64,000 nucleotides of DNA from Halolamina sediminis (GTDB lineage: Archaea > Halobacteriota > Halobacteria > Halobacteriales > Haloferacaceae): the NCBI RefSeq assembly GCF_001282785.1, contig NZ_CVUA01000001.1:1550001-1614000 (forward strand). The letters run 5' to 3'. A program made the translations under genes and the position numbers. Position 1 is the first letter of the stretch. Each line of letters starts with the position of its first letter. The notes under the pieces were generated by a model. That model saw only the letters and a program-made list of their open reading frames with translations. It did no database searches and was not told the origin of the DNA. Shown piece by piece: positions 19,512 through 45,443 of this stretch.

Positions 19512-20587
19512 TCCTCGTTCGCCGGTGACGACGCCTCGATCAGCGAGACGACCCGGTCGGGGCGGTCCATCCCGGCACAGACCGACAGCACCGTGAGATG
19601 GAGTCCGTCCTCCATCGGCGCGTCACCGCCGCGGACCGCGCCGCCGCCGATCGTCTCGTCGAGCGTCCGTCGGGCGTCGGCGATCGCCTCGCGGTTGAGC
19701 CACTCTGGCGGCCCCATCGTCACCAGCAGCGCCCGCGTCGCCCGCGAGAGATCGCCGCCAGCGGAGCGCTGGCGGAACAGCGAGCGCTGGACGGCGGTCT
19801 CGATCGTGCTGTAGCTCTCGATCTCGTCGGGCGACTCCGTCTTCGAGCGCAGGCGATCGAACAGCGACGGCTTCTCGCGGACCTGCTGGCGCCAGTAGCC
19901 CATGGTCGCGTACCCACCCTCGCCCAGCGTCGCGATGATCTCGCTGGCGTCGACGACGCTCTCGCCGACCGCGGCGCCGTCGGCCGCCTCGCCGGCGCCG
20001 AACAGCGCTGGGACCCACTCGGCGATCGTCCCGTTCGCGTCGGCGTAGGCGTCGGCAGCCTCCGCGTCGGCCGGGCGCTCCGGGGGCGCGTCGAGGCTCC
20101 CGTTGTCGAACAGTAGCTGCGTATCGACGGTCGCTTCGAGGCCGCGCAGGCCGGCACGCGCGTTCGAAACGACGCCCTCCTCCTCGGGTGCTGGGAGTAC
20201 GGTCAGCGCGTAGACCGGTACCTCGATCGTCTCCCGGAGCGTGTCGACCAGCACCGGCGCGGCGCCCGCGCCGGTCGCGCCGCCGACACCGACGGTGACG
20301 AGCACGCCGTCGACCGTCGAGGGGACGGCGTCGGTGGCCGCGTGGCTGAGTTCGCGGACGTTCGCCTCCGCGGCCGCACGCACGGCCGCGGCGTCCCCCG
20401 TGGACCGCGAGGTCGTCCCGAACGCGTGCCGGCGCTCCTGTGGCACGTCGATGTCGGCGAGCGCCTCGGGGTCGGTGTCGAAGACGGCGACGGTCGCGAC
20501 GTACGGCCGGTCGTCGGGCTCCGCGGCGGCGAGCCGGGCGGCCACCCGACCGCCCGCGCCGCCGACGCCCAGTACGGCGAGTTGCAT
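19508..20587 (-). CDS. Non-canonical tubulin/FtsZ-family protein
   Basis: 359 residues. The N-terminal GVGGAGGRVAARLAA is an FtsZ-like nucleotide-binding start and GVGGATGAGAAPVL is a variant of the tubulin signature GGGTGSG. NARAGLRGLE resembles the FtsZ guanine-contact helix. The remaining half has no strong match to canonical FtsZ, and no FtsZ C-terminal tail is seen. It could be a CetZ or a third haloarchaeal FtsZ-like group affecting cell shape; GTPase activity is uncertain because the signature is altered. Confidence 0.8.
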   Translation of the reverse strand: MQLAVLGVGGAGGRVAARLAAAEPDDRPYVATVAVFDTDPEALADIDVPQERRHAFGTTSRSTGDAAAVRAAAEANVRELSHAATDAVPSTVDGVLVTVGVGGATGAGAAPVLVDTLRETIEVPVYALTVLPAPEEEGVVSNARAGLRGLEATVDTQLLFDNGSLDAPPERPADAEAADAYADANGTIAEWVPALFGAGEAADGAAVGESVVDASEIIATLGEGGYATMGYWRQQVREKPSLFDRLRSKTESPDEIESYSTIETAVQRSLFRQRSAGGDLSRATRALLVTMGPPEWLNREAIADARRTLDETIGGGAVRGGDAPMEDGLHLTVLSVCAGMDRPDRVVSLIEASSPANED

Positions 20588-28652: not shown

Positions 28653-29486
28653 TCACTGTTTCACGGATCGCTTGATGTTGTGGACCGCACACATCAGGAC
28701 GATCTCACGAAATTCGCGGTACCACGCTCGGGCACGCACCGCGTGGCCGAGCGTGCGCTTAATCGTCGAGAAGACGGTCTCAGACAGTGCTCTTTGGCCG
28801 TATAGAGACCCATCGATGCGCGCGTTATGCGCGCAATCGATGGGTCGGAACTCGCGGTGCTTGATCAGCGGTCTCACGCCCTCTTCGCGCAATTTCTTGC
28901 GCAATTGCTGCCAATCGTAGCCTTTGTCAGCGGCGAGGCTGGCAATCTCGCCCGCGTTGCGGCGGGCGAGTTGCCAGCCGATCTGCGTGTCGTGGCGCTT
29001 CTCAGTCGTACAGTGAACGTCGAGCACAGCTTGCGTTTTCGTATCAACGAGCGCAGTCGCTTTGAGCGTTTGAACGCGGTAATTCGTCCGGCGACAGTAG
29101 TGCTTGCTGGCAGTTTCGCGGTCGAAAAACGTCGCGTCCATTGCGGCGTGATCGGCGGTGTCGTGCAGCTGCGACGAAAGGCGCAGGAGCACCCGCCAGA
29201 TCTTCATCTCTAACCTATCAAACGCCTTCACAAGCGTGGAGTGATGCGGGAGATCGCCCTCTTCGAGGCCGATCTCGGCCAAAATATGCGGCATCTCGCT
29301 CAAGAGATCAAGCGCTTCACGATACGGTTTCGCCAAGTAAATCCGGAGACAGTGAAGCGAAACGACGGCGTAGTCGGCGAAGCCGCCACCCCCTTCGGGG
29401 GCGGCGACTTCGCCTCGGCCACCAACAGCATTTTTAGCTAACGTCACAGTTTTGCGAGTGAAGCGGGAGATTTTCGACATAGGCAT
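28653..29486 (-). CDS. IS5-family transposase
   Basis: 277 residues (275 if the in-frame ATG at 29480 is used). The DDE catalytic residues are Asp117 (AMDATFF), Asp187 (AADKGYD) and Glu236 (ETVFSTIKR), the last within the Y-(2)-R-(3)-E-like region of IS5. The N-terminal half is helical (LPHHSTLVKAFDRL) as in haloarchaeal ISH relatives. It lies wholly inside the terminal repeats and appears intact. Confidence 0.93.
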   Translation of the reverse strand: MPMSKISRFTRKTVTLAKNAVGGRGEVAAPEGGGGFADYAVVSLHCLRIYLAKPYREALDLLSEMPHILAEIGLEEGDLPHHSTLVKAFDRLEMKIWRVLLRLSSQLHDTADHAAMDATFFDRETASKHYCRRTNYRVQTLKATALVDTKTQAVLDVHCTTEKRHDTQIGWQLARRNAGEIASLAADKGYDWQQLRKKLREEGVRPLIKHREFRPIDCAHNARIDGSLYGQRALSETVFSTIKRTLGHAVRARAWYREFREIVLMCAVHNIKRSVKQ

Positions 29487-30668: not shown

Positions 30669-32069
30669 TTATCTGGGTGGGGTGATGTCGGTGTCGTAGA
30701 CGTCGTCGACAGCATCGGCGTAAATGCCGTCGAGGATCGAGAGTAGTTCCGGGTTTTCGACGACTAAGTCACGGAACGCGTCTTCGAGTGCAGCGATGTA
30801 GGCTGTGAAGAAGTCATCGTGGTCGTCAGGGGTGATGTCGTACGTCGCAGCGATCATGTTCCGTTTATTCCCGGTGCGATTGGCAGTCGCCGGGAGAACG
30901 GTGTCGATAGCATCGGCCTGTGCATTGAACTTCTCGTACACCGCGTCGATGAAGGATTGGTCGTTGGCGCCCATGTTTCGGAAGTAGAGGGTGAGCGTGT
31001 TGTCTCGAAGGGCTTGGTCGCGGTCGTTTTCGAGTCGGTGGTGGAATCCGATTCTGGCGTCGTTGCGGTCGTCGGGGCGCTCGTGGCGAATGTCGGTGAG
31101 GTCATCGGTGTGTCGCCACCACCCGTGCTTGAACAGCATCCCCCAGTCGGAACTGGTTGATCGGAACCACCAGTTCCCGACGCCGTCGGTCGGGCACTCG
31201 AACTGGACGTGGTAGTCTGTGTCCGAGAGGATTGCCCCTGAGCCGTTCGATGCAAGGCGATTCGCAAGTCGGGTTGGCCAGTTATGCGCGAACGTCTCCC
31301 ACTGGTCTTCGAACGTCTCGGTCACGTCGGTGATGGTCTCGTAGTGGTCGAGGTACAGTTCGACTTTCTCGGCAACGTTGTCTGTTGGGTCGGACATGCC
31401 TGCGATGGATCGGATGTCGTCGGCGAATTCGTAGAGCTGTACGACCGTTCGCTGCGGGTACCGTGGTGCGGTGGCGACGATGAAGTCGGTCAGGACGGAG
31501 TCGACGAACTTCGTCCACGTCCAGTTGCTGAATTCCGAGTCGTTCGCGTCCGGGCGGTCGGCTTGATGCAGATAGAGGTAGTACGCGCCAGACTCGTAGT
31601 CGTCCTTCGGAACATCGTCGATGTGCGTGACGTCCTGGCGATAGAACTCCGTCTGCGTGTCCTCCGCAGAGAATTTGAGTTCGACCAGAAGGAACCACTC
31701 GTTCGGAACCTGGACGACCAAGTCGACAAAGCCTGACGACACTGGGTCTCCGTCAACTTGCTCCGTGAGCCGTACTTGGTCGTCAACGACGACATCCGAG
31801 AGATCATGGAGATCCTCATCGAACCCACACGTGTCGGGCAAGCCATTGAGGAACGCGCGGAGAAATTCCTCCTCCATTCCGTGCGGTTGGTCCGGATCAA
31901 GGAAGTACGCGAACAACCGGTTGATATACACCTCGGCTTTCTGCTGTGACCCCAGGGAGTATTCGATCACGTCCATCAGTGACCGAGGTGTTTCAGGAAC
32001 GGCGGTGAGTTGCTCCCACCGGCGTGTCAACGTCTCCAACTCACGTCGTAATTCGTTTGTCTCGTTCAT
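30669..32069 (-). CDS. PD-(D/E)XK nuclease-superfamily protein (PF14281-like)
   Basis: 466 residues. NRLFAYFLDPDQPHGMEEEF (about 50-69) is the helix that precedes the nuclease core in this family, and the core residues are Asp116 (GFVDLVV), Glu130 and Lys132 (VELKF), followed by a Gln/Tyr helix. The C-terminal two thirds is rich in Trp and Asp and probably recognises substrate. Such proteins sit in defence islands, but no partner is proven. ATG 32069 is chosen over an upstream in-frame ATG at 32141. It is divergent from the helicase operon, so a shared promoter region lies at 32070-32189. Confidence 0.82.
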   Translation of the reverse strand: MNETNELRRELETLTRRWEQLTAVPETPRSLMDVIEYSLGSQQKAEVYINRLFAYFLDPDQPHGMEEEFLRAFLNGLPDTCGFDEDLHDLSDVVVDDQVRLTEQVDGDPVSSGFVDLVVQVPNEWFLLVELKFSAEDTQTEFYRQDVTHIDDVPKDDYESGAYYLYLHQADRPDANDSEFSNWTWTKFVDSVLTDFIVATAPRYPQRTVVQLYEFADDIRSIAGMSDPTDNVAEKVELYLDHYETITDVTETFEDQWETFAHNWPTRLANRLASNGSGAILSDTDYHVQFECPTDGVGNWWFRSTSSDWGMLFKHGWWRHTDDLTDIRHERPDDRNDARIGFHHRLENDRDQALRDNTLTLYFRNMGANDQSFIDAVYEKFNAQADAIDTVLPATANRTGNKRNMIAATYDITPDDHDDFFTAYIAALEDAFRDLVVENPELLSILDGIYADAVDDVYDTDITPPR

Positions 32070-32189
32070 CCCATCATCCAGAGATACATTTCGGCTGGTG
32101 TATAGGCGCTTTGGCGACAAACTCGGATGAAACGACTCCACTAGTCGAAAAGAGACGACTCGAACATGGTAGACGGGAACAGGCTTATC

Positions 32190-34298
32190 ATGACACCTCT
32201 CAACTGTTTTGACCGTCCGAGGTTCGATTACGTGTCTCTATCTACTGCTGATCGGCGATTCGACGGGACCTTAGTCACGACACCGTTCGGCGCGGATAAC
32301 GTCGAACGGACAGCGCGGGAGGAATACCGAACGCTCCTCGACGAACACGATTCTGAGGATGTGCTCGTCGTCACGGGTGCGCCGACGAGTACCGACACGT
32401 TCCAGGGGGCGTTAGGTGCGGAGCTTCCGGGCGCGGCGACACCGTACGTAACGTCGCTTGTGGTGCATGCGACGGATGTCCTCAATCAGACCGATGACCG
32501 CGTCATCCTTTCTGACGCGCTGCGACGTGAACTCCTCCACCGGTTCCTGGAAGATTACGAGTGGGAAACGGAGTACCTCCAGCGGGCGTCTGCGCAGCCG
32601 TCGTTCATCGAGGACGTGGATGCGGTGATGGGTACGATCTCTTGGCAAATGACCACGCCAGACGAGACACCGGAGCTCCGAGACATCACGGCTGCGCTTG
32701 ACGCGTTCCACGAGTGGCTCGCCGAGCACGACCACATGGAGCGCGGGCAACTGATTTCCGACGCACTTGATGTCCTCTCTGGGGATGCACGCGAGGATGT
32801 CGTGGATTTCGAGGCGGTGCTGGCAGTCGAGTTCGAGGAGTTCTTTCTCCTCGACCGCGCATACCTCGACGCGCTCGCCGGGGACGGTGACCTGGTCTGT
32901 ATCGCGGAAGAGAACGCGAGTGTGCGACGGACGTGGGTCGAGCCGGGGCCGGTGACGGAGTACGTGTCGTTCAGTGAGTCCCGGCGCGGGGTGTCGGTGA
33001 CGCCGTCGTCGCGGCCAGCGGCCACGGCAGCCTACTTCGCTGAAGCAACAGTACCGGAAGACCCGGAATCAGGGTCGGTGTCCGTCCTTGCGACGGCTGC
33101 CAGTGACGAGCAACTCGCCGAGGTAGCGAACGAGATCGAGGAGCTTGTCGGGCAGCGGGACTGGGGGTACGACGACGTCGCCGTGGCCACGAAGCAAAGT
33201 GGGGGGACGGTGACGGACGCGATCGAGGCGCTTGAACGCGCAGGAGTGCCAGCGGAATCGACGACTGTGACGGGGTTCGGTGACGACCCGGCGATCCGGG
33301 AGCTCCTTGCTGTCGTTCGATATCTCGCAGCCGACGAGGAGGATGAGGCTGTAGTGTCGGATCGCGGGCCGGAGCTTGATCCGGAGCGTGTTGCCCGTGC
33401 TGGCGAGAGGGACAGCTTGGAGGATGCGGTTCGGTGGTGGGCGACGGATTCGGGGTTGAAGGCTCGGATCGCAGAGCGTGCGTCGCCGTTAGATGCTCGT
33501 GCACAGTTTGGGAATGTGCGGCGGGCGTTCCGCATGGCGGCGTTCCTTGAAGATACTGAGTTCGTGGACGCGTCGTGGGCGTCGTACCGGGAGATGCTGG
33601 AACGCGCTCACGAGTACGCGCCTCAGCAGAACCAGACGAGCGCGACGGATTTCGACGGCGGTGTCCGGATCGATCACTTGCAAGCGATCAAGAACGAGTC
33701 GTTCCGCGCGGTGTTTCTCGTGAATCTCGTGGACAGTGAGTACCCGGGCGACGCGTTCCTGACGCGGTTGTTCCCCACAGAGCGGGTCGCGTCGATGCCG
33801 GACTACCCCGGTGTGACGGACCTTGAGGCAGCGGATGTGGATGCGACGTTCCCGACGACGTCCACAGCTTCGAGCCGGCCGTTCGCACGGTATCACACGG
33901 AGCACGCGCGGCGTCGCCTCGCAATCGGGGCTGGTGCGGCGACAGAGCGACTGTACTGTTGCCTGTACGAGTATGAGGACACGGCGCTCGAAGAGCGTGC
34001 GCAGGCGTCGCGGTTCCTCACGGCCGCATACGACGACGTGCCGTGGGTGACAGACGCCGATGATCCGGCGATTACGAGCGAGCAAGCAGCGGAGGAGTAT
34101 CTACTGTCACGGGTCGATGACGCACTGGCAGAGGTGCGGCGCGCGAACAGTCAGGACGTGACGGTGTCGCTTGACGAGGTGGAGGGAGAGCTCGGAGAGA
34201 TCCAAGCGTTGCTGGATGCGAGTGGGGAGCGGGGTGACGCGCTTCGAAAGGCGTTGCGTGCGCGTGTTGAACTGGCGAACGGGGAGGTGCGGCGATGA
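32190..34298 (+). CDS. AddB/RecB-like helicase-related protein lacking Walker A
   Basis: 702 residues from ATG 32190; an in-frame ATG at 32166 would give 710. It begins a three-gene operon of overlapping ORFs. The architecture resembles the inactivated SF1 helicase half of AddB: a P-loop-like spot reads VVTGAPTSTDTF with no GKT, while the late region keeps SF1-like features (VRIDHLQAIKNESFRAVFLVNLVDSEYPGD, with a motif V-like HLQAIK...VFLV, and HTEHARRRLAIGAGAATERLYCC, resembling motif VI). It carries no nuclease residues; those are on the next gene. Probably the recognition or scaffold subunit of a DNA end-processing complex. Confidence 0.72.
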   Translation: MTPLNCFDRPRFDYVSLSTADRRFDGTLVTTPFGADNVERTAREEYRTLLDEHDSEDVLVVTGAPTSTDTFQGALGAELPGAATPYVTSLVVHATDVLNQTDDRVILSDALRRELLHRFLEDYEWETEYLQRASAQPSFIEDVDAVMGTISWQMTTPDETPELRDITAALDAFHEWLAEHDHMERGQLISDALDVLSGDAREDVVDFEAVLAVEFEEFFLLDRAYLDALAGDGDLVCIAEENASVRRTWVEPGPVTEYVSFSESRRGVSVTPSSRPAATAAYFAEATVPEDPESGSVSVLATAASDEQLAEVANEIEELVGQRDWGYDDVAVATKQSGGTVTDAIEALERAGVPAESTTVTGFGDDPAIRELLAVVRYLAADEEDEAVVSDRGPELDPERVARAGERDSLEDAVRWWATDSGLKARIAERASPLDARAQFGNVRRAFRMAAFLEDTEFVDASWASYREMLERAHEYAPQQNQTSATDFDGGVRIDHLQAIKNESFRAVFLVNLVDSEYPGDAFLTRLFPTERVASMPDYPGVTDLEAADVDATFPTTSTASSRPFARYHTEHARRRLAIGAGAATERLYCCLYEYEDTALEERAQASRFLTAAYDDVPWVTDADDPAITSEQAAEEYLLSRVDDALAEVRRANSQDVTVSLDEVEGELGEIQALLDASGERGDALRKALRARVELANGEVRR

Positions 34299-35200
34299 GC
34301 GGGCGAGCCTTGTCCCCGTCGCGGTTGGCGACGTACGCGGCGTGCCCGCGGCAGTACGAGTACGGGTACGTCCAGGACGTGAACACGCCGGACCGGACAG
34401 AACTGTACTTGAACCAAGGATCGATGTACCACGAAGTGATTGAGGACGTCTGCGAGGCGACATCGCCTGAAGATGCAGCAGAGACGATTCATGCGCGGGC
34501 GATGGAGACGTTCACGGCGAAGTGGGACGAGCACACGGTCCGGGAAGATTACGAGTCCACCGCGCATAGGGAGTACCAGCGCCGGGAGAACCGAGCAGCA
34601 ATCGAGGCGTTCTTCGCACCGGACGGTGGTGACGGGATCGAACACGCACGTCGATCCGTTGCGACTGAGTGCTGGGTCGAGTGTGAGCGCGACGGGCGGG
34701 CACTGCACGGGAAAGCTGACAACGTCATCCGAACCGACGACGGGCTCCACGTGTTCGACTACAAACGGAATACGCGGGGCGTCATCTCCTCTGGGACCGC
34801 CGAGTACCTCGCCGATCACCGCGACGGCGACGCGCACGAGCCGAAACGCGTGCGGAACGCGTTCCAGACGGCGACGTACGTCGAGGGCGTGAAGAACGAA
34901 CCGTTCTACGAGGAGGGGATGGAGGTCCGGTTCAGTTTCTACGGCCTGCTCAACAGCACGTCGTTCGAAAGCACTTCCACTGGGTACGAGGTGTCTGCCC
35001 GCGGGTATCCGCGGGAAACCACGGGAATCTACGAAGAGCACTACGACACGATTTGGGCACTCATCCGCGAGGCTCACGACGGGATTACTGGCGAGGCGTT
35101 CGAGCCTGCCCCGTTCGACCTGATCAACGAGGAAGCATGCCCGGACTGCGACTACCGAGAGATGTGCGCTGACCGCCTGTCCACGGAGGTGCAGCGATGA
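34295..35200 (+). CDS. Stand-alone RecB/Cas4-type Fe-S nuclease
   Basis: 301 residues. It has the complete RecB-type core: His46 (SMYHEVIE), Asp142 (GKADNVI), and Asp155-Tyr-Lys157 (VFDYKRN). Four cysteines are placed as in AddB and Cas4 iron-sulfur nucleases: Cys17 (ACPRQYEYGY) and Cys282, Cys285, Cys291 (CPDCDYREMC). The ATG overlaps the stop of the helicase-like gene and its stop overlaps the UvrD gene, each by 4 bp. It looks like the AddB nuclease domain made as a separate protein. Confidence 0.88.
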   Translation: MSGRALSPSRLATYAACPRQYEYGYVQDVNTPDRTELYLNQGSMYHEVIEDVCEATSPEDAAETIHARAMETFTAKWDEHTVREDYESTAHREYQRRENRAAIEAFFAPDGGDGIEHARRSVATECWVECERDGRALHGKADNVIRTDDGLHVFDYKRNTRGVISSGTAEYLADHRDGDAHEPKRVRNAFQTATYVEGVKNEPFYEEGMEVRFSFYGLLNSTSFESTSTGYEVSARGYPRETTGIYEEHYDTIWALIREAHDGITGEAFEPAPFDLINEEACPDCDYREMCADRLSTEVQR

Positions 35201-38200
35201 GCGGCGACACCGAGTACCCGTCGTGGTACCCGGAACCGAAGGAAGACGTCTCCCCGGAACCCCAACAGCAGGCGATCATCGACGCCGATGCGTATCCGAT
35301 GCGCGTACTGGCTGGCGCAGGGACGGGGAAGACGTTCACGATGGTGCGGAAAATCGAGCACCTCATCGACGAGGAAGGCGTCTCTCCGGATCGGATTCTT
35401 GCGTTGACGTTCACGAACAACGCGGCGGACTCGATGCGAGAGAAACTCAACGCGAAACTCGGCGCGGCCGGGTACGACATCGACGCGTACACGTACCACT
35501 CCATCTGTAACGAGATCCTCACCGACTACGCGTACGAAGCCGGTATCGACCCGGACTTCGAGGTCGCCACCGACGCCGAGAAGTACGCCATCGTGCTGGA
35601 TGTGCTGGACGACATCGAGTACCGGGCTGTGAAACCCAACGTGTACGGCGGTGACGGGTACGCGTCCGGCGCGGCGTCGAAGCTGCTGAACTTCATCGGG
35701 TCGATGAAACGCAGCGGCATCACGCCCGAGGACATCGATGCGTTCCTCGGGCCTGCTGACCGCGTGCACGACCTCGCCGACCTCCCGGAGCGTGTCAAGT
35801 CGATTGCCAGCGACCATCTAAATGGCCGGTCCGTGTCCAGCGTGCTGGATTCGCTCCCAGACGCGCGTGCCGACCTCGTCGCCGAACGCGACGCGCTCGG
35901 GACGGACGGTATTGAGGCCAGTGTACGCGACTTCCTCGACCGGCTCGTCAAGCTTTGCGACGCACTCGAAGCGGCATTCGAAGCACACCAGTCCGGTGAT
36001 CGGGAACTGCCGGACAACGCGTACAAACTCCCGAAGTACTTGCTCGGCGGGTACGCAAGTGGTGCGCCGACAGGTATCCCAGGTGATCTCAACCTCGAAC
36101 TCACCGATCATCTCGACTCGTTCGTCTCGGACTGCCTCACCGCGCGTGACCTGACGGCTGGATACGCGGCGTACGAGCGTGAACTCGATGAGCGGAACCT
36201 GATAGACTTCGATGGCCTCGTCGTTGAGACGGCCGCACTGATGGATTCGCCGGTCGGCGAGGAGATCGCTGACCGGTGGGATTACGTGTTCTGTGACGAG
36301 TTCCAGGACACAGATCGGCTGCAGTTCGACCTCGTCACGTCGCTAGTCACCGACGACAACCTGTTCGTCGTTGGTGACGATGACCAGGCGATCTACGAGT
36401 GGCGCGGCGCGCACGTCGCCAACATCACCGACGAACTCGACCGGGCCTTCGACGCGCTGTCCGACGAACCCTTAGAGGAGAACTTCCGCTCCCGACAGCC
36501 GATCCTCGACCTGGCGAACGAAGCAATACAGAAACTCGACCACCGCGAACGCCACAAGACACTGAAACGCGTCGATGAACCTGCGTACGACGGGGACACC
36601 GTTGCTACCGTGGAACTGCCGGAGGAAGACGACGCGGATGGTGCGTCTCAACTTCGCACTGTCGTGCAGAACCTGTTGAGCGGTGCAGCAGACAACCTTG
36701 ACCAGGCGTACGATCCGGGCGATATCGCGTTACTCGTTCGGAAGAACGACCACGCGACGCCGGTCATTGAGGAATTCGAGGATGCCGGAATCCCGTATCA
36801 GGTTGCTGGTGATCTGGCCACGGAATCAGTTGGGGTCGGAACCGTCACCGCTTACCTGAAGGCGCTCGCACGACTCGACGACGAAGTCAGTTGGAACCGC
36901 GTCCTCTTGATGCGGTACCGACTGTGCGACGCCGATCTCCGCAGCCTCAACGCGGGCGACGAGCCACTCGTGGATACACTGCGGGAGACGCCGCTCGACG
37001 AGTTTGAAGAACCTGACCGTGTCGCCGAGGCCCGCGAACACGTGACGGAACTCCTCGAACTTCGGAACTCGGCATCACTCAGCCACTTGTACCGCGAACT
37101 TTCGGACATCACGAACATTGAGTGGTACCTGACCGAGCAGGAACGCCGTGACCTCGCCCAGCTGGAGGACGTCATCGAACAGTACGGGGACAGTACGGTC
37201 CAACCGCCGCTCACCCCGGAGTTCATCGACTCGCTCGAACACTACGACTCACTGTTCGACGAGAGCGGCTCCTCCCCGACGAGCCAGCCGGATGTCGCCG
37301 ACGACGCGGTCAACGTCACGACCATCCACAAGAGCAAGGGCCTGGATTTCCCGGTCGTCCTCATCCCGCAGATCACGGCCGACGAGTGGGCACCGAGTTC
37401 ACGCACCTACGACGCGTTCGAAACGAGCCTGTCCGACGGGCCGGAGACGGCGTTCGCCGACGACTTCGTCGAGCGTGACGCGCGTGAAACCCGGCGCGTG
37501 TTCCACGTCGGAATCACTCGCGCGGAAGATGTCCTCGTCCTCCAGGGCGGTTCCGATGACGACGACGATGCTGCGGACGTGCACCCGATTTCAGAGGCCG
37601 TCGATGAGGTTCTGCCACCTCGGATCCCGTGGCAGCCAGCGCGCGGGCAGCTCCCGCTCTGGACTGATGTGCAGGAGTGTCTCCCGGATGACGCCGGAGA
37701 CTGGACTGATACGCTGGCGAGTGAGACTGTCGGGCACATTGGCGGGAGCATCAATCACGAGGGGGAAGAACTCGCGGTTGAGCAGGCACGCGACCGCGTG
37801 GTCGATCTCGCAACAGCCACCCTGAACGGCGACCTCTCTCCGAGTACCGAGTTGGAGACACTTCAGGTTTCGTCGTTGACCGGACCGTCGGCACCGTCGC
37901 CGTCGCTCTCACACAGCTACACGTCACTGGCAGCCTACGAAGAATGCCCGCGCAGTCACTATCTGGACTACGTGGTCAACGCGTTCCCCGATCACCGGGA
38001 GGCCACGAGTGATGCGGGAAGCGGGGTGTCTCAACGTGAGATCGGCGTGCTGTTCCACGACACTGCAGAACAAGCTGGGAAGCAGGGCGTGGACCAGCAG
38101 GAGGGGTGGGACGAGATTTGCGAGCGGCTCGCCAGTCAGCGCCGAGCTGAAGACGCGCTCCCGGCGGCGAAACAGTGTATCGACCGGTACTTCGAGTTAG

Positions 38201-38649
38201 ACCTCCCTGATTACGATATCATCGACGCAGAGCGAGAGTTCGAACTCGACATCGACGGGCACGAACTCGTCGGGTACATCGACGCCGTGTATCGAACGCC
38301 GGACGACGAGCTTCTCGTCATCGACTACAAGGCGACCGAACGGCACCGCGACTTGGAGGACGATAAGCAACTCCCGATCTACCTGTTAGCGTGCCGTGAC
38401 CTGTACGACGAGCCCGTTCGACGGGCGGGGTACGCCTACGTCGGCGATATCGGACCGAAGGTTGAGACGCGAACGTTCAACGCCGACGAGCTAGAAGCGG
38501 TTAGGGACGACGTGACGGCGTCGATGAACGAGATCAGAGAGTTTTCGTTCGATCAGTATACCGACGGCGAGCATTGTCGGTGGTGCCATCATAACCAACT
38601 CGACTGCGCACCGGATTCGTTCAGGGTTGCTCCTTGGTTCGAGGAGTAA
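35197..38649 (+). CDS. UvrD/AddA-type helicase fused to a C-terminal Fe-S nuclease
   Basis: 1150 residues. SF1A helicase motifs are intact: Walker A AGAGTGKTF (39-47), LTFTNNAA, Walker B DEFQD (about 367-371), VVGDDDQAIYEWRG, HKSKGLDF (about 711) and VGITRAEDVLVL. The C-terminus (about 905-1150) is a PD-(D/E)XK nuclease: LFHDTAEQ, GYIDAVY, VIDYKAT, with an Fe-S cysteine set at Cys917 (CPRSHYLDYV), Cys1127, Cys1130 and Cys1137. The protein probably unwinds and degrades duplex DNA from ends. It is the motor of the three-gene operon. Confidence 0.93.
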   Translation: MSGDTEYPSWYPEPKEDVSPEPQQQAIIDADAYPMRVLAGAGTGKTFTMVRKIEHLIDEEGVSPDRILALTFTNNAADSMREKLNAKLGAAGYDIDAYTYHSICNEILTDYAYEAGIDPDFEVATDAEKYAIVLDVLDDIEYRAVKPNVYGGDGYASGAASKLLNFIGSMKRSGITPEDIDAFLGPADRVHDLADLPERVKSIASDHLNGRSVSSVLDSLPDARADLVAERDALGTDGIEASVRDFLDRLVKLCDALEAAFEAHQSGDRELPDNAYKLPKYLLGGYASGAPTGIPGDLNLELTDHLDSFVSDCLTARDLTAGYAAYERELDERNLIDFDGLVVETAALMDSPVGEEIADRWDYVFCDEFQDTDRLQFDLVTSLVTDDNLFVVGDDDQAIYEWRGAHVANITDELDRAFDALSDEPLEENFRSRQPILDLANEAIQKLDHRERHKTLKRVDEPAYDGDTVATVELPEEDDADGASQLRTVVQNLLSGAADNLDQAYDPGDIALLVRKNDHATPVIEEFEDAGIPYQVAGDLATESVGVGTVTAYLKALARLDDEVSWNRVLLMRYRLCDADLRSLNAGDEPLVDTLRETPLDEFEEPDRVAEAREHVTELLELRNSASLSHLYRELSDITNIEWYLTEQERRDLAQLEDVIEQYGDSTVQPPLTPEFIDSLEHYDSLFDESGSSPTSQPDVADDAVNVTTIHKSKGLDFPVVLIPQITADEWAPSSRTYDAFETSLSDGPETAFADDFVERDARETRRVFHVGITRAEDVLVLQGGSDDDDDAADVHPISEAVDEVLPPRIPWQPARGQLPLWTDVQECLPDDAGDWTDTLASETVGHIGGSINHEGEELAVEQARDRVVDLATATLNGDLSPSTELETLQVSSLTGPSAPSPSLSHSYTSLAAYEECPRSHYLDYVVNAFPDHREATSDAGSGVSQREIGVLFHDTAEQAGKQGVDQQEGWDEICERLASQRRAEDALPAAKQCIDRYFELDLPDYDIIDAEREFELDIDGHELVGYIDAVYRTPDDELLVIDYKATERHRDLEDDKQLPIYLLACRDLYDEPVRRAGYAYVGDIGPKVETRTFNADELEAVRDDVTASMNEIREFSFDQYTDGEHCRWCHHNQLDCAPDSFRVAPWFEE

Positions 38650-38673: not shown

Positions 38674-38712
38674 TTTTTGACTACAACGATACCCAGATAT
38701 GGTAGTCAAAAA
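38674..38712. promoter_or_regulatory. Inverted repeat after the helicase operon
   Basis: TTTTTGACTAC (38674-38684) and GTAGTCAAAAA (38702-38712) form perfect 11-bp arms around 17 nt. The T-rich left arm follows the UvrD stop by 25 bp and could act as terminator hairpin for the operon; the pair may instead be an operator for the ATPase gene downstream. Confidence 0.5.
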
Positions 38713-38714
38713 TT

Positions 38715-38732
38715 GGGTATTCCAGAATACCC
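38715..38732. promoter_or_regulatory. 18-bp palindrome upstream of the ATPase gene
   Basis: GGGTATTCCAGAATACCC is a perfect palindrome with a 2-nt centre, 56 bp before the ATG and just upstream of a CTTATC box (38745-38750). A related half ATACCCA occurs at 38690-38696. Likely operator of a dimeric repressor; inference. Confidence 0.45.
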
Positions 38733-38787
38733 TAATCTGATCTACCTTATCGACGCTGTTATTGGGGTGGACCCGGACTGTAGGCGT

Positions 38788-40170
38788 ATGGACGGATTCG
38801 TCGACCGCGATGCGGACGTTGCGGCCCTTCAAAAACGGTACGACTCCGACGAGGCCTCACTAATCACCGTCTGGGGCCGCCGGCGTGTGGGGAAGACGGA
38901 GTTAGTCGAACACTCCATTCGTGATCGGGACGACGTCGTCTACTATCAAGCCACGGAGACGACCAAGCAGATGCAACTCGATGACTTCGTGGCGGAGGCG
39001 GCGAGAGCTTTTCCGGGTATCGAGCGGATCCGCCGCGAGTGGGAGGATGTCCTCGGTTATCTCATCGAGCAGGACGCGCTGATCGTCCTCGACGAATTCC
39101 CATTCCTGATTGAGAGTGACGAGAGCCTCCCTTCGGTCGTCCAACGACTGTGGGATCACGAGGTTGAGGGCACGAGTGCCACGCTGGTGCTTGTCGGATC
39201 ATCGATCAGCATGATGAAAGAGAAGGTGATGAGTGGCGGAAGCCCGCTTCACGGCCGGTTCGACATGCGCCTCCAGCTGGAAGAACTGCCGTTCGACGCC
39301 GCCACGGAGTTCTTCCCCGACTACGGCCCTGAGGAGACGGTGCTAACGTGGGGCGTTTTCGGCGGGACACCACACTACCTGCAGGCCGTCGACGACGACC
39401 GACCACTGGAGGAGAACATCCGGGATGCCATCCTCTCGAAACGTGGGTTCCTCCACGACGAACCCGAGTACGTACTGCGAACGGAGTTAGAGAATCCGAA
39501 CCGCTATTTCTCGATCCTGAAGGCGATCGCCGCTGGGAACGCGGCCTCGAACGAGATCGCACAGACGGCCGGCATCGACTCGGATCAGATTAGCCATTAC
39601 CTGAAGAATCTGCAGGACTTGGAGATCGTCGACCGGAAAGTACCGGTGACCGAGAATCCGGCACAATCGCGGCGCGGGCAGTACGTGTTGCAGGACGCGC
39701 TGTTCCGGTTCTGGTTCCGATTCGTCTATGGACAGGGCGACAAGTACGACCGGGCGGGCACCGACGCCTACGATGAACTGATCGAACCACACCTCGCAGA
39801 CGCAATCAGTCCGAAGTTCGAGGAACTGTGCCGAACCGCCGTGTATGACCTCTATGACGGGTATACGTTCGAGCGAGTCGGCAGCTGGTGGTATCAGGAG
39901 CAGGAGGTTGACGTGGTCGGACTGACGAGCGACGCGACGATGGTCGCCGGCGAATGCAAGTTCACCAGCCAGCCGATGGGGTACGACGTGTTGAACGATC
40001 TCGAAAGCGACGTCGAGGATATCCGCTGGACGCCACATGGCGGAAGCGATGTCGCCTACGAGTTCTGCTTGTTCTCGCGGAGCGGCTTCACCCAGAGCCT
40101 GATTGAGGCTGCGGAGGAACGGGCCGACCTCCGCCTGTTCTCGATCGAGGACATCGTCAGCGCGTTCTGA
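38788..40170 (+). CDS. Archaeal AAA ATPase with DUF234-type C-terminal nuclease-like domain
   Basis: 460 residues. Residues 1-220 form a STAND-like AAA ATPase: Walker A WGRRRVGKTE (29-38) and Walker B LIVLDEF (98-104). A winged helix follows (about 240-300, NEIAQTAGIDSDQISHYLKNL), then a DUF234-type domain whose Asp375 (VDVVG) and Glu389-Cys-Lys391 (AGECKF) fit a PD-(D/E)XK fold. Members are common in archaeal mobile and defence regions, with an unknown trigger. ATG 38788 begins the conserved FVDRDADVA; the frame extends to 38677 but would run across the palindromes. Confidence 0.88.
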   Translation: MDGFVDRDADVAALQKRYDSDEASLITVWGRRRVGKTELVEHSIRDRDDVVYYQATETTKQMQLDDFVAEAARAFPGIERIRREWEDVLGYLIEQDALIVLDEFPFLIESDESLPSVVQRLWDHEVEGTSATLVLVGSSISMMKEKVMSGGSPLHGRFDMRLQLEELPFDAATEFFPDYGPEETVLTWGVFGGTPHYLQAVDDDRPLEENIRDAILSKRGFLHDEPEYVLRTELENPNRYFSILKAIAAGNAASNEIAQTAGIDSDQISHYLKNLQDLEIVDRKVPVTENPAQSRRGQYVLQDALFRFWFRFVYGQGDKYDRAGTDAYDELIEPHLADAISPKFEELCRTAVYDLYDGYTFERVGSWWYQEQEVDVVGLTSDATMVAGECKFTSQPMGYDVLNDLESDVEDIRWTPHGGSDVAYEFCLFSRSGFTQSLIEAAEERADLRLFSIEDIVSAF

Positions 40171-40274: not shown

Positions 40275-41639
40275 ATGCCTGTGCTGGACGAGCTCTCCGG
40301 GTTCGAGTTCGAGGACGTCATCGAGGACGTCTTCCGGAATCTCGGGTACGAGAACGTCCGGCAAGCTGAACGGACGGCTGACGAGGGGCGTGACATCCTC
40401 ATGGAGGAGATCGTCGACGGTCAGCGTCGCGGGATCGTCGTCGAGTGTAAGCACACGGGGACGGTCGGCCGGCCGGTCGTGCAGAAACTGCACTCGGCGA
40501 TTGCGACGTTCGAGTTCGATGGGCCGAAACGCGGCATGGTGGTGACGACTGGCCGGTTCACGAATCCGGCTATTGAATATGCTGAGCGGCTGCATCGGAA
40601 CGACGACCCGTACCCGATCGAACTCATCGACGGTGCGGACCTTCGTGAGATCGCCGACGAAATCGGGCTTGACCTCTACAACGGCCGGATCGAAATCTTG
40701 TGCGACGAGACGCTCCGGGCGTACGATCCGGCAACGTCTGTGACTGCGCCGGTCGAGGAAGCGTTCCAAGACATCGAAAACATCGACTCATCAGAGCTTC
40801 CCACGCCGTACTCGGAAGTCACATTCCGGCCAGTCGTGGCGGTGACAGCGGACACGAACGCTGTCTTCGAGACTTCGGTCGGCGTGATTCACCGGGTCAA
40901 CGACCGGTCACGGTTCGTCGTGCATGCTGACCGCGGGCAGCCACGAACAACCTCTGAGGACGTCTCGAATCTCGTGTTGGAGAACCTCCACACGACTGTT
41001 GACCTCGATACGGATCAGTTCGAGAGCGTGTTCGATCGCGTTGAGGAGCGACGGTACGGGCAAACGCAGACTGAGTACAAAGAGTGGGCTGTCGAACGGC
41101 TCCAGGATCACCACACGACGACGGTGTCCTATACGGGGGATAACAACGTCACGTACACGAAAACCTGCGAACCGAACCGCTCTGATATCTCGGTCCAGTC
41201 CATCGAACCGGTGTACGTGCCACAAGTCCGGCACACGACGGACCTTCAGTCGTACTCGTATCCCTACGAGTATTTCGCGGCAGGGCCATCACGCGTAACA
41301 CGTGACGACGGGATCCATCAGTGTGTTCACTGTGACACAGCAGGCTCCAAGAATACCTACACGTACTGTGGGAACTGCGGCAGCATCAACTGTGACTCCC
41401 ACGTCAAAACCGAGCGGCTGGAAGAAACTCCGGTCTGCACGGGGTGCGCGGTAACCGAGCGCTTTGCGTTCAAAACGAAGTACTTCTACGATGAGACGAA
41501 TCGGGATGCGTTCCGGGAACAGTACGAGGCCATGCCGTTCTACGAGAAAGCGATGGAGAACACGCCACTGGCTGTCGGCGCGGTAGTGTTCGTCGTCATT
41601 GTACTGCTCGGTTTCTTTGCCGCTGCTGGGGGAATCTGA
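40275..41639 (+). CDS. Mrr-type restriction endonuclease with zinc ribbon and C-terminal membrane anchor
   Basis: 454 residues. The N-terminus is an Mrr_cat-type PD-(D/E)XK domain: GFEFEDVIEDVF, Asp40 (DEGRDIL), then Glu57 and Lys59 (VVECKH), and a QxxK-like VVQKLHSAI. The middle (about 130-340) is unassigned. Cysteine pairs about residues 350-400 (CVHC, CGNC, CTGC) form one or two zinc ribbons, and one hydrophobic helix lies at about 430-450. Mrr enzymes cut modified foreign DNA; a membrane-bound version could watch incoming DNA at the envelope. Monocistronic. Confidence 0.87.
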   Translation: MPVLDELSGFEFEDVIEDVFRNLGYENVRQAERTADEGRDILMEEIVDGQRRGIVVECKHTGTVGRPVVQKLHSAIATFEFDGPKRGMVVTTGRFTNPAIEYAERLHRNDDPYPIELIDGADLREIADEIGLDLYNGRIEILCDETLRAYDPATSVTAPVEEAFQDIENIDSSELPTPYSEVTFRPVVAVTADTNAVFETSVGVIHRVNDRSRFVVHADRGQPRTTSEDVSNLVLENLHTTVDLDTDQFESVFDRVEERRYGQTQTEYKEWAVERLQDHHTTTVSYTGDNNVTYTKTCEPNRSDISVQSIEPVYVPQVRHTTDLQSYSYPYEYFAAGPSRVTRDDGIHQCVHCDTAGSKNTYTYCGNCGSINCDSHVKTERLEETPVCTGCAVTERFAFKTKYFYDETNRDAFREQYEAMPFYEKAMENTPLAVGAVVFVVIVLLGFFAAAGGI

Positions 41640-43405: not shown

Positions 43406-43708
43406 ATGAGTACCAAGCGAGTGAACTTCCGGCTTCCTGAGGAGCTGGTCACGCAGGCTGACATCGCTGCAGAGGTAACACACAAGAACCGGACAGAGGT
43501 GCTGATCGAGGCGCTCCAGCAGTATCTCGAAGAGAAAGAGTCCGAAGAGAGCTTCCGGGAAGCGGTTATCGAACTGTACCTCGACGACCAGATCGACTTC
43601 GAGAACCTCGTCGACGTGATCGGCCGACAGGACGCTGAGGCGGTCCGATCGTCGAAGAACGTCTTGGACCGTGGCGAAGAGCTGGCCGACGACCTCGCCG
43701 ATCTCTGA
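43406..43708 (+). CDS. Ribbon-helix-helix antitoxin
   Basis: 100 residues. The N-terminal KRVNFRLPEELVTQADIAAE is a ribbon-helix-helix DNA-binding unit (about 3-48), followed by an acidic helical tail (about 50-100) that should wrap the toxin. The stop TGA overlaps the toxin ATG by one base. It neutralises the PIN toxin and should repress the operon. Confidence 0.85.
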   Translation: MSTKRVNFRLPEELVTQADIAAEVTHKNRTEVLIEALQQYLEEKESEESFREAVIELYLDDQIDFENLVDVIGRQDAEAVRSSKNVLDRGEELADDLADL

Positions 43709-44199
43709 TGCTCGTTGTCGATACGAGCGCGCTCATCTCGCTGGCAGTCGGCGATGCGCTCGATCCTGTTCTTGCGGAGTACGACGTGATAACGACCCAG
43801 ACAGTCTGGGAGGAACTCGAAGCTACCGCCGACTACGACGACCGGCACGGGGACGGAGCAGCAACGGTTCTCGGCAGCGAGGACGCGTTCAGTATCGTCG
43901 AAACACAGGCCGAAGCGTTTGAGACTAGCCGCATTGATGCTGGTGAGGCAAGTTGCGTCGCGGCGACGCGAACCCGGGACACACCGTTTCTCGTCACTGA
44001 CGACTATCGGGCGCTCCCCGAGCTTCAAGAATTGGTGGACGCCGAAGTCGTGTTGTCCCCTATCGTGCTCCGAGCGCTTGTCAAGCGAGGGACGTGGTCC
44101 GAACAACGAGCGCAAACTGCCTTTGAGAAGATCGCAGAGGGACGTGACTGGCTCGGTGCGCCGATCTATCGGTACGCACGACAGCTCTTCGAAGATTGA
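43708..44199 (+). CDS. PIN-domain toxin (ribonuclease)
   Basis: 163 residues with the PIN acidic set: Asp5 (VVDTSALISL), Glu in TVWEEL, Asp/Glu in DAGEASC and Asp-Asp in LVTDDYRAL. PIN toxins cleave RNA, commonly tRNA or rRNA, with Mg2+. It is translationally coupled to the RHH antitoxin, giving a VapBC-like arrangement though with an RHH partner. Confidence 0.88.
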   Translation: MLVVDTSALISLAVGDALDPVLAEYDVITTQTVWEELEATADYDDRHGDGAATVLGSEDAFSIVETQAEAFETSRIDAGEASCVAATRTRDTPFLVTDDYRALPELQELVDAEVVLSPIVLRALVKRGTWSEQRAQTAFEKIAEGRDWLGAPIYRYARQLFED

Positions 44200-45143: not shown

Positions 45144-45368
45144 GCTTCGCAGCGGAACCGATTTTCGACCTCGTTTGACGACCGCGAGTAAGCGCAGATC
45201 GACTGCCACCCAAGTATTATGTGTTCTGAGTGATATTCAAATGTAGGCGAATCGCATGACATCGGCGACCCCCGTTCCGGAGCGTGATGAAATCAACACG
45301 GCCGCGGAGGGGCTCCTTTATAAGGAACGTACCGCCGTCTGCCAAATGTTGATCGTCACGCAGAAGGA

Positions 45369-45443
45369 TGGGCGCTGCAGGATTTGAACCCGCGACAGCT
45401 TGGTCCGAAGCCAAGTACTCTGTCCAGGCTGAGCTAAGCGCCC
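45369..45443 (-). tRNA. tRNA-Arg (anticodon TCG)
   Basis: Read on the minus strand: acceptor GGGCGCT / AGCGCCC with discriminator A, D arm TTAGCTCAGC, anticodon stem CTTGG / CCAAG with loop CTTCGGA giving anticodon TCG, and T arm with GGGTTCAAATCC. No intron and no encoded CCA. A CTTAAC box lies about 27-33 bp upstream. Its 3' end faces the island, the usual geometry for integration at tRNA genes. Confidence 0.95.

Follow-up and report, generated by a model that had tools for sequence, protein, structure and literature searches.

The window, that is, the whole stretch of 64,000 nucleotides analysed here, comes from Halolamina sediminis, whose 2.84-Mb genome is assembled as a single contig. 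Three genes lie in tandem on its forward strand: G1 (32166–34298), G2 (34295–35200), and G3 (35197–38649), encoding proteins of 710 (counted from the first ATG), 301, and 1150 amino acids, respectively. The open reading frame coordinates confirm, at both junctions, the 4-nt overlaps described in the original prediction for this DNA. Because relatives of G1 can be aligned only from about residue 17–30 onward and residues 1–28 of its AlphaFold model have pLDDT values below 50, the true start of G1 is uncertain; it may be 32190, an in-frame ATG at residue 9 of the 710-residue protein, or lie slightly later.

The trio is located in an island whose GC content is about 0.57–0.63 (roughly 28–46 kb), compared with about 0.67–0.72 outside. 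Near the left edge of this island is a DDE transposase gene (28653–29486, minus strand; DDE_Tnp_1, 3.7e-23). The divergent neighbour of the trio (30669–32141, minus strand) encodes a PDDEXK_4 nuclease domain and matches the PADLOC candidate PDC-S26; it is found near the trio in a few other loci. Directly downstream is an archaeal protein combining ATPase_2 and DUF234 (38677–40170, plus strand) that matches PDC-S27, followed by a restriction-type Mrr_cat nuclease (40275–41639, plus strand); the clusters to which these two belong are each present in 7 trio loci. Farther along, at 43406–44199, a short gene whose beginning reads like a ribbon-helix-helix antitoxin precedes one that begins like a PIN-domain toxin, a possible VapBC-like pair. 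Neighbours in other trio loci include Argonaute, TmtA-like proteins, and a type II-like methylase; in three loci (L009, L011, and L027) a TmtA-like protein of 1644 amino acids, identified by PADLOC, is encoded shortly upstream of the trio.

On the right, the island ends at a tRNA-Arg(TCG) gene (45369–45443, minus strand). Synteny with five congeners begins exactly at 45369 in three of them, at 45355 in a fourth, and at 45247 in a fifth, or the reverse order for these last two, and past the tRNA nothing can be aligned, save that in one congener a distant segment of the window (59–64 kb) adjoins it. Judged from these sequence comparisons, the tRNA-Arg(TCG) gene is an integration hotspot. A search of positions 20001–45300 for a direct repeat of at least 12 nt of the tRNA-Arg 3′ end found none. 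A tRNA gene lies downstream of the trio in 13 of 27 loci including the window, always on the strand opposite to the trio (Arg-TCG in five, Cys-GCA in six, and Val-CAC in two), a count that overstates independence because it includes loci closely related to one another.

Parts of the three proteins

For G1, Pfam gives only a sub-threshold UvrD_C match (E = 0.066), and a profile built from 36 relatives and searched against the PDB finds UvrD1 (4e-10), AddB (4e-8), and PcrA (9e-6). The AlphaFold model (pLDDT 82.7, pTM 0.80) resembles SF1 helicases, and among the matches listed its top query-normalised TM-score, 0.63, belongs to the AddB chains 4cej_B and 4ceh_B, with UvrD/Rep/PcrA at 0.46–0.55 and AdnAB chains at 0.49–0.60. 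No GxxxxGK[TS] motif is present in the Walker A region in 77 rows of G1 relatives. The open reading frame, profile, model, and motif table thus describe a degenerate SF1 helicase subunit with an AddB/AdnA-like fold and no Walker A, and the predicted fold together with the missing motif would fit the dead-motor B subunit of AddAB. This agrees with the original prediction, which had called G1 AddB-like and devoid of Walker A and had proposed structure prediction against AddAB as a check. We also considered a G1–G2 fusion; the long open frames found (1359 and 1016 amino acids) contain G1 alone, and G2 remains separate.

G2 is a free PD-(D/E)XK nuclease (PDDEXK_1, 2e-24; model pLDDT 91.8) with catalytic residues H46, D142, D155, and K157 and putative Fe-S ligands Cys17/282/285/291. 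Its best PDB matches are the nuclease domains of AdnA and AddB, ahead of Cas4. G3 joins a motor of the UvrD type (Walker A K45, DE 367/368) to a nuclease of the Cas4/AddB type (H954, D1029, D1043, K1045, Q1058, Y1062; Cys917/1127/1130/1137), with Pfam matches to UvrD-helicase (1e-60), UvrD_C (1.5e-27), and PDDEXK_1 (1.6e-24). All of these motor, nuclease, and cysteine residues are found in 58 of 62 G3 rows, the other four being incomplete at one end. Both proteins are therefore as originally described, a free nuclease and a complete UvrD helicase with a nuclease of its own. The same account had made both nucleases iron-sulfur enzymes: the two cysteine sets stand, being invariant or nearly so in relatives, and the clusters themselves are putative, read off the cysteine pattern. 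Two other assignments were rejected. The Gabija GajB models match the G3 motor only, with no match to GajA, the OLD-type nuclease of that system, among the neighbours scanned, and a simple Cas4 match is weak and under the cut-off.

Distribution, ancestry, and loss of catalytic residues in G2

The gene order is strict. Of the fetched loci that contain G1 and extend far enough downstream (113, a number that includes duplicates; 77 rows remain once identical sequences are removed), every one has G2 after G1 on the same strand, and wherever G3 is within range it comes third (63 of 63 loci). G1 is found in 140 of 391 sampled Halobacteria genomes, representing 51 of 86 genera, and its relatives fall into three types. 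The island type, to which the window belongs, is 75–100% identical to the window's G1; the plasmid type, 57–62% identical, accounts for most of the plasmid records found; and the diverged type is about 30–42% identical. Outside the Natrialbaceae the distribution is patchy, with island-type copies of 77–85% identity in genera of several families, and G1 is absent from all five congeners searched with it, a set that did not include a sixth member of the genus (G749). With a cut-off of E ≤ 1e-30, a diverged-type G1 query has a match in 105 of the 121 Natrialbaceae genomes, covering 25 of the 29 genera; most have a single copy, although some of the genomes counted also have island or plasmid types. 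We read our family f4 as Natrialbaceae because a match in one of its genomes (G181, C1:26743–28830) has the coordinates of one on pAArc1-01, a plasmid of Natrarchaeobaculum sulfurireducens, which belongs to that family. A viral origin was rejected: no G1 relative was found in viral contigs (short-pattern scan) or in phage records, and the viral-contig matches of G3 are to ordinary SF1 helicases, with 25–55% identity over short stretches.

Profile comparison places all three proteins closer to UvrD-Cas4 fusions than to AddAB. In HHalign, G1 scores 181 bits over 616 columns against the fusions and 138 bits over 464 columns against methanogen AddB, G2 scores 146 against 78 bits, and G3 scores 922 bits (952 columns) against 573 bits for AddA; HMM scores favour the fusions for all three as well. 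The reference sets behind these numbers were 22 archaeal UvrD-Cas4 sequences and, for AddB and AddA, methanogen-type loci in which an AddB-like and an AddA-like gene overlap, such as the euryarchaeal loci L104, L105, L106, and L107; for bacterial AddAB and AdnAB, the comparison used NCBIfam models and PDB chains only. G1 and then G2 match consecutive parts of the fusion profile (columns 148–861 and 905–1149, motor then nuclease), as expected if both derive from one split subunit. In a tree of nuclease domains, G2, G3, and AddB each occupy one side of a branch; because the deep joins have long branches, the ancestry argument rests on the profile scores. On those scores, G1 and G2 together resemble a degenerate sister of G3 that was divided in two more than they resemble an AddB that was split. 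By the curated models, the trio is not an AddAB ortholog: G3 reaches 123 bits against the NCBIfam AddA cut-off of 707.65, the AddB model does not match G1, and addB_Gpos has no match in the window's own genome. The original description of AddAB parts cut at a different place therefore holds for the appearance of the trio, and perhaps for how it works, and not as a demonstrated ancestry.

What the trio shares with AddAB (RexAB) is one active UvrD-type motor-nuclease, one dead-motor partner, a nuclease with Fe-S cysteines, and the gene order B then A. It differs in having three polypeptides, with the nuclease detached from the dead motor as a separate gene in all loci, and in the loss of Walker A. 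The AddA nuclease is not known to carry Fe-S cysteines, whereas in the trio both nucleases carry a set, that of G3 being present in all complete rows. AdnAB of mycobacteria likewise has two motor-nuclease halves, and in the PDB G2 is matched best by the nuclease of AdnA. The AdnAB Fe-S cluster sits in AdnA; in the trio G3 bears a cysteine set, G1 is a protein distinct from G2 and has no Walker A, and PcrA/UvrD score higher than AdnA or AdnB. G3 itself has the architecture of the UvrD-Cas4 fusions, a UvrD motor with a Cas4-like nuclease, which have been linked to defence loci (Hudaiberdiev et al. 2017, PMC5704561); unlike them, it is always accompanied by G1 and G2, and the accessible text of that study describes no such partner.

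In one lineage, the second nuclease appears to be dying. Among 80 G2 rows, 61 keep all checked catalytic residues and the four cysteines, whereas 15 lack H46 and K157, with D155 missing as well in 14, and retain all four cysteines; of the rest, three are truncated at the start, from loci fetched for G3, and one has an apparent cysteine change (L067). The 15 depleted rows are of the diverged type and only 19–25% identical to the window's G2, which is a caveat for their alignment, although the DxK strand is nevertheless aligned without gaps. Twelve have a locus listed, and 11 of these come from Natrialbaceae genomes, the other (L072, genome G369) from family f1. Most Natrialbaceae copies examined have lost the catalytic residues of G2 and kept the cysteines, and G3 is intact where this has happened; other diverged-type G2 proteins, for example in L066 and L069, preserve the active site. 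By analogy, the Natrialbaceae trio, with a dead motor and a dead nuclease, may represent a RecC-like state. In RecC, too, the helicase domains and the nuclease domain are inactivated, with AddAB proposed as an intermediate on the way there (PMC1185551); in contrast to RecC, the Natrialbaceae trio retains Fe-S cysteines and consists of separate proteins.

Linkage to Argonaute and AgaP

Fifteen of the sampled genomes have an Argonaute of one subfamily (85–100% identity to the copy in L003), which is partial or broken in G317 and G289, and all 15 carry an island-type trio. Argonaute and trio are 1.1–2.4 kb apart on one contig in 14 of these genomes and on separate contigs in G261, with AgaP, annotated as 'phospholipase D family protein', between them. 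In about 40% of island-type loci, the trio directly follows Argonaute-AgaP. Among 39 distinct island-type loci, a large AgaP match is found directly upstream in 16, a short one in six (in L012 cut by the contig end), an AgaP elsewhere in one, and none in 16, including the window. In some loci without Argonaute, AgaP tails persist 9 nt upstream of G1. Because the window's genome has no Argonaute of this family and its trio no AgaP remnant, the Argonaute link cannot explain the window copy.

The arrangement corresponds to APAP, a haloarchaeal system in which a long-A Argonaute and the PLD protein AgaP form an operon. The ago-agaP pair is present in relatives, with the trio directly downstream, and absent from the window, which shows that the trio also occurs without it; the part of the APAP report available to us notes only 'a helicase-encoding gene' near some ago-agaP operons and states that mesophilic Argonautes have no helicase step of their own (PMC11442185). 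The linkage makes sense in light of bacterial precedents, in which RecBCD helps to shape the DNA guides of Argonaute, and AddAB and TtAgo co-precipitate (PMC10269773). Three plasmid-type loci (L060, L061, and L063) have AgaP downstream of the trio, together with an OB and exonuclease-like protein and no Argonaute. The protein between trio and AgaP in these loci (L060:2754–3881, plus strand) matches the N-terminus of haloarchaeal Argonaute with its own N-terminus (query residues 12–102) and, weakly, a PolB exonuclease.

Proposed machine and competing explanations

We favour, with a probability of roughly 0.6, the reading that G1, G2, and G3 form one AddAB/AdnAB-like helicase-nuclease that processes DNA ends, the island type likely degrading foreign DNA. 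Its best interpretation makes G1 and G2 together the non-motor subunit and G3 the motor subunit; we infer that the three proteins bind one another, although they could also act separately. In this machine, G3 would be the sole ATP-driven motor (3′–5′, UvrD type) and would cut one strand. G1 would be its dead-motor partner, bracing G3 and guiding or threading single-stranded DNA, and G2, held by its putative Fe-S fold, would dock onto G1 at the position of the AddB nuclease domain and cut the other strand. The island type, the window's copy included, would likely assist host defence by degrading foreign DNA that is linear or broken; where Argonaute-AgaP lies just upstream, the trio might unwind targets, supply single-stranded fragments as guides, or both.

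Two alternatives concern the composition of the machine. G3 alone could be the enzyme, a UvrD-Cas4 helicase-nuclease with G1 and G2 as regulators: it is by far nearest to these fusions, and fusions without a G1- or G2-like partner exist in the 16-kb loci L102 and L103. Set against this are the strict order and overlapping frames of the genes and the predicted retention by G1 of the whole SF1 fold, and we regard a mere regulatory role as quite improbable. We give similarly little credence to a true AddAB with a split AddB gene. The addB-addA order of the methanogen loci and the best solved fold among the matches listed, AddB, speak for it; the higher UvrD-Cas4 scores of all three proteins, the cysteine set on the G3 nuclease, and the failure of the curated AddA and AddB models speak against it.

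The other alternatives concern what the machine does. It may be a housekeeping enzyme of double-strand-break resection, an archaeal counterpart of RecBCD/AddAB merely carried onto islands and plasmids. The conservation of G3 in every complete sequence fits this idea, and the near-universal, mostly single copy in Natrialbaceae suggests housekeeping DNA repair there, so that the root function may be repair rather than defence. As a general explanation we find it rather unlikely, because the trio is patchy in other families and missing from the congeners searched, island-type copies, which occupy tRNA hotspots or plasmids, have Mrr, TmtA-like, PDC-S, and Argonaute genes as neighbours, and the window's genome has NurA and a weak Rad50-type match. 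The step of the original prediction from island to defence is supported by the low GC content, defence-type genes, and tRNA around the window's trio, and it is not a full account in view of the diverged trio of the Natrialbaceae. Alternatively, the island-type unit could be an extended APAP cassette (ATPase-Argonaute-AgaP-G1-G2-G3) of which the window's trio is a leftover. The complete linkage in the Argonaute-bearing genomes, the AgaP tails in several Argonaute-less loci, and the reported helicase gene point in this direction; the intact trios without any AgaP trace, the plasmid-type loci with AgaP and no Argonaute, and the Natrialbaceae-type loci examined, which have no AgaP cluster, make it improbable. 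A bolder proposal, which we consider unlikely as a whole, is that the trio is a helicase-nuclease dedicated to haloarchaeal Argonaute immunity, whose AddAB architecture arose on its own after a UvrD-Cas4 fusion was duplicated and one copy lost its motor activity and was split; it would feed Argonaute with guides from broken foreign DNA and have been domesticated in Natrialbaceae, its second nuclease dying as in RecC.

If the favoured reading of one end-processing machine is correct, a three-part RecBCD-like complex, present in nearly all members of one family and mobile elsewhere, would add an unrecognised enzyme of resection or DNA degradation to archaea. A dead motor and, in one lineage, a dead nuclease would make a route from an AddAB-like to a RecBC-like machine testable in living organisms, and the tight link to one Argonaute subfamily would make the trio a natural candidate to provide the helicase step which, according to the accessible text of the APAP report, mesophilic Argonautes lack (PMC11442185). 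The components are of known kinds, namely UvrD-Cas4 fusions in defence loci (PMC5704561, in its accessible part), APAP systems, and AddAB-like machines; the openly accessible part of the literature yielded no description of the three-part form, of its lineage found in nearly all Natrialbaceae, of the second nuclease having died, or of the linkage to Argonaute. End resection in haloarchaea has been credited to Mre11-Rad50, and HerA and NurA are said to be absent from Haloferax volcanii (PMC7776575). In the window's genome, a NurA family match over the cut-off lies at C1:2181371–2182306 (minus strand), and a control NurA search also matches in Haloferax volcanii, contrary to that review.
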